A stretch of DNA of 64,000 nucleotides from Sneathiella glossodoripedis JCM 23214. Lineage in GTDB: Bacteria; Pseudomonadota; Alphaproteobacteria; Sneathiellales; Sneathiellaceae. Positions within the stretch are counted from its first letter, which is position 1; every line of letters begins with the position of its first letter. The stretch spans positions 434,001-498,000 of the forward strand of contig NZ_BAMS01000001.1 in NCBI RefSeq assembly GCF_000616095.1, read 5' to 3'. Under the pieces are notes generated by a model. That model was not told the DNA's origin. It saw only the letters and a list, made by a program, of their open reading frames with translations, and ran no database searches. The position numbers and the translations under genes were made by a program. Positions 62,084 to 62,994 of the stretch are shown here, piece after piece.

Positions 62084-62118
62084 AAAAATGGCATCTCTTC
62101 GCGGGGATGCCATTTTTT
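62084..62118 (+). terminator. Rho-independent terminator of qor
   Basis: A long AT/GC hairpin (AAAAATGGCATC / GATGCCATTTTTT) 18 bases after the qor stop, with a T-run. The flanking A-run also makes it usable from the other side. Confidence 0.85.
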
Positions 62119-62168: not shown

Positions 62169-62239
62169 TATAGTAATTACATAAATTATTACTAAAAATT
62201 TCTGATAAAAATCCTAAAAATTTAGATATAAAATCTGAT

Positions 62240-62620
62240 CTAGAGCGGAATTGATTTTTGTTGAAAGAATCCAATAAGTGACTTTTCATTCATGCCACCT
62301 TTAGCGATGGAAGAAAAAAGTTTGAGAATATCGTCATTGGTCAAATCAAGCAAAAAGCCGTTTCGCCGTAATGTCATCATAACGAGTAGAATCGCCAGAG
62401 AAGCATTTCCTTTGCTGGCAGGCTGTTCGGAAATAACGCCAGTGAACAGAGACAAAACCACTTCAAAAATATCTGAGCTGGATTTTGAGGTAACCATCAT
62501 TCTCGGCCAGGCAAGTGCAGCCCGAATTTTGACATCATCAATCTGGCAATCACCATCCCCAAAATCCGAGGATAACCTTCTATAGGTTTCGCGAATAACG
62601 GCTCGAGTTGGTAGATGCAT
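62240..62620 (-). CDS. Doc/Fic-fold protein with a degenerate Fic motif, possible toxin of a TA pair
   Basis: 126 residues that follow the Doc layout: an N-terminal region, KIRAALAWPR matching the Doc ALAxP segment, IFEVVLSLFTGV, the Fic helix, then MMTLRRNGFLL. The Fic motif HxFx(D/E)(A/G)N(K/R)R reads here QPASKGNAS: His66 is Gln, the acid is Lys70, and the K-R pair is Ala-Ser; only Gly71-Asn72 remain. So AMPylation/phosphotransfer chemistry is unlikely. It ends SLIGFFQQKSIPL. Eight bases downstream of the AbrB-like gene. Confidence 0.7.
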   Translation of the reverse strand: MHLPTRAVIRETYRRLSSDFGDGDCQIDDVKIRAALAWPRMMVTSKSSSDIFEVVLSLFTGVISEQPASKGNASLAILLVMMTLRRNGFLLDLTNDDILKLFSSIAKGGMNEKSLIGFFQQKSIPL

Positions 62621-62628
62621 AAAATCCC

Positions 62629-62874
62629 CTATTTGAAGAGCCGTTTGAGTGAAGGGCGGTAATGAGTTTCAATTGGCTCATAAAGAGCCATGAACTCATC
62701 AAACTCAGGATCGATTTTTCGAACCTGCAGGCCATCTCCTTCAATTTTAACTCGCAAAGTATCCCCTATTTCATAGCCAAGATGGCGCAGAAACTCAGCC
62801 GGAATAGTCACGCCCGCTGCACTTCCCGTCTTTCTGAGTTTGGTCTCGAAAGGCTCAAGGTCTTTTTTAACCAT
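62629..62874 (-). CDS. AbrB/SpoVT-type antitoxin-like protein
   Basis: 81 residues. SpoVT-AbrB swapped-hairpin DNA-binding domain at residues 10-50 (KLRKTGSAAGVTIPAEFLRHLGY, GDTLRVKIEGDGLQVRKI), then an acidic to basic C-tail (DPEFDEFMALYEPIETHYRPSLK) which in TA systems would bind the toxin. First gene of a two-gene unit with the Doc-like gene; a perfect 18-bp palindrome lies 36 bp upstream. Confidence 0.85.
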   Translation of the reverse strand: MVKKDLEPFETKLRKTGSAAGVTIPAEFLRHLGYEIGDTLRVKIEGDGLQVRKIDPEFDEFMALYEPIETHYRPSLKRLFK

Positions 62875-62909
62875 AAAAAATAACCTGTAATATCAGATGT
62901 CTATACAAG

Positions 62910-62927
62910 TAATAACATATGTTATTA
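62910..62927. promoter_or_regulatory. Perfect palindrome TAATAACATATGTTATTA upstream of the AbrB-like gene
   Basis: An exact 18-bp palindrome, 36 bp before the AbrB-like ATG, in the position of an antitoxin autoregulatory operator. Confidence 0.65.
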
Positions 62928-62962
62928 TTAATTCTAAGGATTAAATCAAATGCCAGAAATAC

Positions 62963-62994
62963 AAAAAAAGCGCCACCTGGTGAGGTAGCGCTTT
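62963..62994 (-). terminator. Rho-independent terminator of rho
   Basis: On the minus strand a 12-bp stem with one G-U (AAAGCGCTACCT / AGGTGGCGCTTT), four-base loop and seven T, 24 bases after the rho stop. Confidence 0.88.

Follow-up and report, generated by a model that had tools for sequence, protein, structure and literature searches.

Two adjacent genes on the minus strand are the subject of this analysis, the antitoxin-like gene lying upstream and the Doc-fold gene 8 bp downstream of it. They are located in the rho-qor region, with which the window ends, the window being the whole stretch of 64,000 nucleotides analysed here (G000:C12:434001-498000, its genome being labelled G000), from Sneathiella, a group of marine bacteria. 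The initial annotation had described a two-gene unit with an 8-bp gap and an AbrB-like partner, placed between the rho and qor terminators and preceded by a perfect 18-bp palindrome, and each of these points was recovered: both open reading frames are present, the AbrB-like protein matches PF04014 over cut-off, the palindrome TAATAACATATGTTATTA is found at 62910-62927, and terminator hairpins are located at 62967-62994 and 62084-62117. The features of the locus are listed below with the evidence on which they were assigned.

62967..62994, minus strand: terminator hairpin of rho, bordering the insertion spot on one side (module-free genomes have its equivalent)
62909..62928, unstranded: operator-like site 1, GTAATAACATATGTTATTAT, upstream of the antitoxin gene, with the perfect palindrome at 62910-62927 (conserved in relatives, genome-wide scan)
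62629..62874, minus strand: AbrB/MazE-type antitoxin-like gene, 81 aa (PF04014, TIGR02609, AF2 secondary structure, 11-genome alignment)
62240..62620, minus strand: gene of the 126-aa pseudo-toxin with the Doc fold, its Fic motif no longer functional (AF2, Foldseek, TIGR01550, alignments)
62384..62428, minus strand: eroded Fic loop, E65-Q-P-A-S-K-G-N-A-S-L-A-I-L-L79 (translation and comparison with 27 canonical relatives)
62173..62192, minus strand: operator-like site 2, GTAATAATTTATGTAATTAC, downstream of the pseudo-toxin gene, within the conserved AATTTTTAGTAATAATnTATGTAATTAC (dead-module comparison, shuffles, scan)
62084..62117, unstranded: qor-side terminator hairpin, the other flank of the spot

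The Doc fold, its Fic motif and the antitoxin partner

Foldseek comparison of the AlphaFold model of the 126-aa protein (pLDDT 86.2, pTM 0.79) returned P1 Doc (3dd7) as its top matches (E 1.5e-4, TM 0.75), and a profile of 11 relatives compared to the PDB likewise retrieved P1 Doc (E 1.3e-8), so that the Doc relationship proposed by the initial annotation is borne out by both structure prediction and family profile. With TIGR01550 (DOC_P1) the window protein scored 25.3 bits (E 1.3e-5), below the cut-off of 38.65, and it had no match over the gathering score to PF02661 (Fic/Doc), nor any match to another Pfam family; the less eroded relative from G016 scored 30.4 with PF02661 against a gathering score of 24.

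The canonical counterpart of the eroded loop reads N-H-P-F-x-D-G-N-K-R, of which F, D, G, N, K and R are retained by all 27 canonical relatives compared. The window loop, EQPASKGNASLA, is missing the TasAB toxin motif H(x)5NKR, and none of the clade's 8 copies, referred to here as the dead copies, has the full motif. Alignments establish that the loss of the His, the acid and K-R from the Fic motif had been correctly recognised. The proposed change of His to Q66 stands as regards the loss of the His, while a substitution at Q66 and a deletion are not separable by alignment, owing to a canonical Sneathiella loop (NRHPF) that is one residue longer than most (NHPF); loss of just the catalytic His codon was considered but not adopted, as loop lengths vary among canonical Docs. 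'ALAWPR', previously taken to be a Doc motif, had to be given up, since canonical relatives read ALARP and the W is specific to the clade (8/8). As compared to the 27 canonical relatives, the dead clade has lost the GGxxGxRD loop, the Arg of ALxRP, the Tyr, the Asn preceding the His, the His itself and the Asp, and has newly fixed W38, R40, M42 and R85-R86 (8/8) together with E65 (7/8). The motif residue Asn72 is invariant in the dead clade, and is probably a structural residue.

The 81-aa protein matches PF04014 (MazE/AbrB) at 37.3 bits, and scores 37.6 bits with TIGR02609 ('doc_partner'), below the curated cut-off of 55.9. Its model displays AbrB-type strands N-terminally followed by a C-terminal helix at residues 56-80 (AF2, pLDDT 73, moderate confidence). 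The nearest solved relative is the 'addiction module antidote' of Enterococcus faecalis, an AbrB-type protein paired with Doc, whose DNA-contact residues K8 and R10 align with K/R12 and the invariant R14 of the Sneathiella family (PMC13034048). The antitoxin being AbrB/MazE (PF04014) and not of the Phd fold, the pair falls outside the P1 type. A terminal L-[AS]-[KEQ] is present in 21 of 21 canonical partners and in all three canonical Sneathiella antitoxins, as compared to none of the 8 dead modules, a loss which points to co-change of both proteins.

Distribution and erosion at the rho-qor spot

Composite AbrB/MazE-Doc modules were described in 2006 as TasAB, from 55 loci, the toxins being characterised by the motif H(x)5NKR (PMC1626090), and the structure of the AbrB-Doc module of E. 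faecalis has been solved (PDB 9VZC; PMC13034048). Toxin homologues were detected in 69 of 385 sampled alphaproteobacterial genomes, four of the 69 being Sneathiella. All 26 inspected homologues outside Sneathiella (the closest alphaproteobacterial ones) keep the canonical His...DGNKR, and for 21 of them the terminus of an AbrB-type antitoxin could be retrieved from the upstream sequence. The earlier view that the pairing was unusual, with Doc normally pairing with Phd, was therefore too narrow, TasAB being known and common in Alphaproteobacteria; the pairing is known, and what is new is a dead version with natural intermediates. No dead copies were found outside the genus in a search of genome contigs with the window toxin, in plasmids (tblastn) or in viral contigs, and a contig search with the antitoxin profile yielded one distant locus of clostridial origin besides six loci of the Sneathiella type, with no further dead copy among them. 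A second weak match in the genome of the window itself (C12:1574116), antisense to an MFS transporter gene, was rejected as chance.

Among the family genomes a homologue is present in 12 of 26, always together with the antitoxin gene. Relatives occurring as single genes without an AbrB partner, which the initial annotation had named as evidence against its proposal, were not encountered, both genes being found in 12/12 genomes with a match and orphans in none. Eleven of these 12 genomes carry modules of the rho-qor type, while G017, and a second pair in G010, represent distant canonical modules elsewhere. All 11 modules lie between convergent rho and qor, a spot that measures about 75-150 bp in module-free genomes with the exception of G011, where another gene is present. 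This gene (L021:2590-3492) specifies a DUF3800 protein (PF12686), and its presence at the same spot indicates that the spot is a small cargo site.

A canonical module, with HPF[AT]DGNKRVG, occupies the spot in G007, G014 and G023, and the dead version, having neither the His nor the acid in any copy, in eight genomes. K-R was lost in steps across the dead copies and is gone in four of the eight: the remaining motif reads GNRRM in G016, GNKRL in G021, NNRRT in G010, GNIRL in G002, GNPHL in G015, GNTAL in G009 and GNASL in G005 and the window. In a DNA tree of rho and qor the eight dead-module genomes fall within one clade of ten (100/100), of which the two module-free members, G018 and G024, are read as losses; canonical modules are patchy in the sister clade, being present in 3 of its 11 genomes. 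A tree of the two proteins from which the motif columns had been removed separated dead from canonical modules with full support and placed G016, one of the least eroded copies, as basal to the other dead modules; the species tree places G016 elsewhere, though not with strong support. The modules also differ in direction, canonical ones being oriented along qor and dead ones along rho, and these opposite orientations at one spot (L013-L015 canonical, L001 dead) may represent an inversion or a separate insertion.

Operator-like sites

Site 1 is conserved in the other module-bearing Sneathiella genomes for which the upstream region was available, and GTAATAACATATGTTATTAC is found with small changes upstream of the antitoxin gene in the modules examined, canonical ones included. 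The palindrome there fills the 17-bp spacer of TTGACA-17-TACATA, a putative promoter with the spacer read by eye; no sigma-70 promoter was detected at the operator when it was scanned for by consensus. Site 2, at 62173-62192, had been overlooked by the initial annotation. It is present at the same place behind the toxin gene in seven of the eight dead-module genomes (not in G015), within sequence that has otherwise diverged among them. Six of these seven copies have 0 mismatches, as compared to a minimum of 3-4 in dinucleotide shuffles, which almost never match as well. When the 3.63-Mb window genome was scanned with up to 2 mismatches allowed, sites 1 and 2 were the only matches, and a reversed control pattern gave no match in the same genome. 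With a site-2 profile, strong matches were confined to G017 and the genomes that carry a module, with none at E<0.01 in G018 and G024, the clade members without one.

A number of additional elements were observed. G017 harbours a perfect site-2 element (L071:6489-6508) with no dead module found in a genome that is 56% complete. Next to the dead module of G005, two direct copies of site 2 flank a gene for a nucleotidyltransferase (PF06042; L073:3222-4029) in a cassette-like arrangement. Site-2-like elements occur in G002, G010 and G021 (L077:2945, L075:3397 and L078:1454) 3' of one conserved gene, which encodes a putative secreted protein with 'YPSYFL' and no Pfam family; they may mark an additional target of the AbrB protein or belong to a dispersed repeat. 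In G015 a perfect copy of the site-2 core occurs within a coding sequence resembling mnmE (L070:6813-6832) and may be due to chance; extra operator-like matches in G018, G006 and G005 (C1:667837), located in coding sequence or a terminator-like stem, were dismissed as chance.

Retention of the pair and its likely role

The toxin-like reading frame is open in all eight dead lineages, with no pseudogene found, while under neutral drift the probability of an open frame per lineage would be 0.035 at 0.3 substitutions per site, falling to 0.002 at 1.0. In the same gene, differences at codon position 2 are half as frequent as those at position 3. Values of dN/dS were 0.15-0.48 for the toxin gene, 0.05-0.30 for the antitoxin gene and 0.03-0.15 for qor; these are rough, since dS is saturated, and come from NG86 only, saturation having made YN00 unusable for nearly all pairs. 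The toxin-like gene thus evolves faster than the antitoxin gene and than qor, which makes the constraint moderate; judged from these frame and codon statistics, the dead module is kept under purifying selection.

The explanation that we favour, with moderate confidence, is that a TasAB-type AbrB-Doc module, the toxin of which is now a non-catalytic pseudo-Doc, has been selected in one Sneathiella clade as the regulatory partner of the AbrB protein. Sequence comparison suggests that an old toxin-antitoxin pair may have been kept as a gene regulator, and lends support to the regulatory role that the initial annotation had put forward for the protein. The fold, the loss of the motif, retention under purifying selection, the co-occurrence of both genes and the conservation of the operator are read from the sequence, while DNA binding, protein-protein binding and the direction of the regulatory effect are inferred. 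A dimer of the AbrB-like protein would bind the palindrome upstream of its own operon, repressing the operon at site 1, and would probably also bind site 2, downstream of the toxin gene. The pseudo-Doc, no longer an enzyme, is predicted to bind the C-terminal helix of the antitoxin and to modulate its DNA binding, most likely as a co-repressor bridging AbrB dimers at the two sites. A precedent for a dead toxin in such a role is the inactive CcdB of the Salmonella plasmid pSLT, which acts as a co-repressor (PMC5065971). The full AbrB-Doc complex of E. faecalis did not bind DNA (PMC13034048), and the pseudo-toxin could therefore instead relieve repression. It also counts against the regulatory explanation that the constraint on the toxin-like gene is moderate, that the module's own sites are the only known targets in the genome, pure self-regulation being of no obvious benefit, and that the homologous sites, some of them far from the module (G002, G010, G021, G017), could be other repeats. 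It is possible, if doubtful, that catalysis was lost once in the genus and the module then rebuilt into a stable regulator that loops DNA by means of two proteins and two operators, the pseudo-toxin forming the structural bridge and carrying new, clade-specific binding residues.

An anti-addiction function, whereby the antitoxin is kept to neutralise incoming canonical AbrB-Doc modules and the dead toxin merely stabilises or regulates it, is established as an idea for chromosomal antitoxins (e.g. PMC2654758 and PMC7354431). It would agree with the circulation of canonical modules in the sister clade, where three related genomes have one at this very spot, and with an antitoxin better conserved than the toxin. 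It appears unlikely, however, as the dead-clade antitoxin is without the L-[AS]-[KEQ] kept by every canonical partner examined and has only 46-52% identity to canonical Sneathiella antitoxins, and as the toxin gene, for which the idea has no need, is retained in every case. Plain decay, with a dead toxin on its way out and hitch-hiking with an antitoxin selected only for self-repression, could account for the faster evolution of the toxin and for the loss of the module from G018 and G024; it becomes improbable in the light of a frame kept open in eight divergent lineages (neutral P 0.002-0.035 for each), of the slower change at position 2, of the new invariant residues and of the finding of neither a pseudogene nor an orphan antitoxin. 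Least probable is that the protein is still toxic or enzymatic by another route, such as EF-Tu or ribosome binding without catalysis. In its favour are the continued presence of antitoxin and operator and the toxicity of Campylobacter fetus Fic2 despite a degenerate Fic motif; Fic2, however, retains and requires its His (PMC5651007), whereas here the His and acid are gone in 8/8 and K-R in 4/8, along with the GGxxGxRD loop and the ALxRP Arg.

What makes bacteria maintain toxin-antitoxin modules on their chromosomes has long been asked. At the rho-qor spot catalysis is gone, yet the pair, the operator and the fold are under selection, and canonical counterparts occupy the same site in sister species; with the intermediates GNRR, GNKR, GNIR, GNPH, GNTA and GNAS, natural variants are available in which it can be tested in what order the residues were lost and what function is left.

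Comparison with characterized systems places the regulatory pair proposed here as follows. TasAB modules (PMC1626090; TIGR02609 with TIGR01550) likewise comprise an AbrB/MazE-type gene followed immediately by a Doc-fold gene of equal size in a compact operon, while the Sneathiella dead module lacks H(x)5NKR, has an altered antitoxin C-terminus and a further operator-like site downstream of the toxin gene, and both window proteins fall under the NCBIfam cut-offs. The E. faecalis 'Phd-Doc' system (PMC13034048, PDB 9VZC) shares the AbrB-type DNA-binding domain with its C-terminal helix and a palindromic operator, but its Doc is an active enzyme in which the motif is intact, its operator is single and its complex does not bind DNA. 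The Doc fold is also common to P1 Phd-Doc, of which the solved H66Y mutant represents a man-made catalytically dead counterpart; there, however, the antitoxin is Phd and not AbrB, and P1 Doc possesses the full motif and phosphorylates EF-Tu. Degenerate Fic proteins, such as C. fetus Fic2 (PMC5651007) and E. coli FicT (PMC5033356), combine the Fic fold and a departed motif with continued pairing to an antitoxin or regulator, although Fic2 keeps its His and is toxic, the motif of EcFicT is only somewhat degenerated, and the antitoxins paired with them belong to the Fic inhibitory-helix type and not to AbrB. Finally, the ccdAB system of Salmonella plasmid pSLT (PMC5065971) differs in its unrelated toxin fold (CcdB), its single substitution and its location on a plasmid, but is likewise a case of a naturally inactive toxin kept with its antitoxin, and one for which the co-repressor role has been demonstrated.
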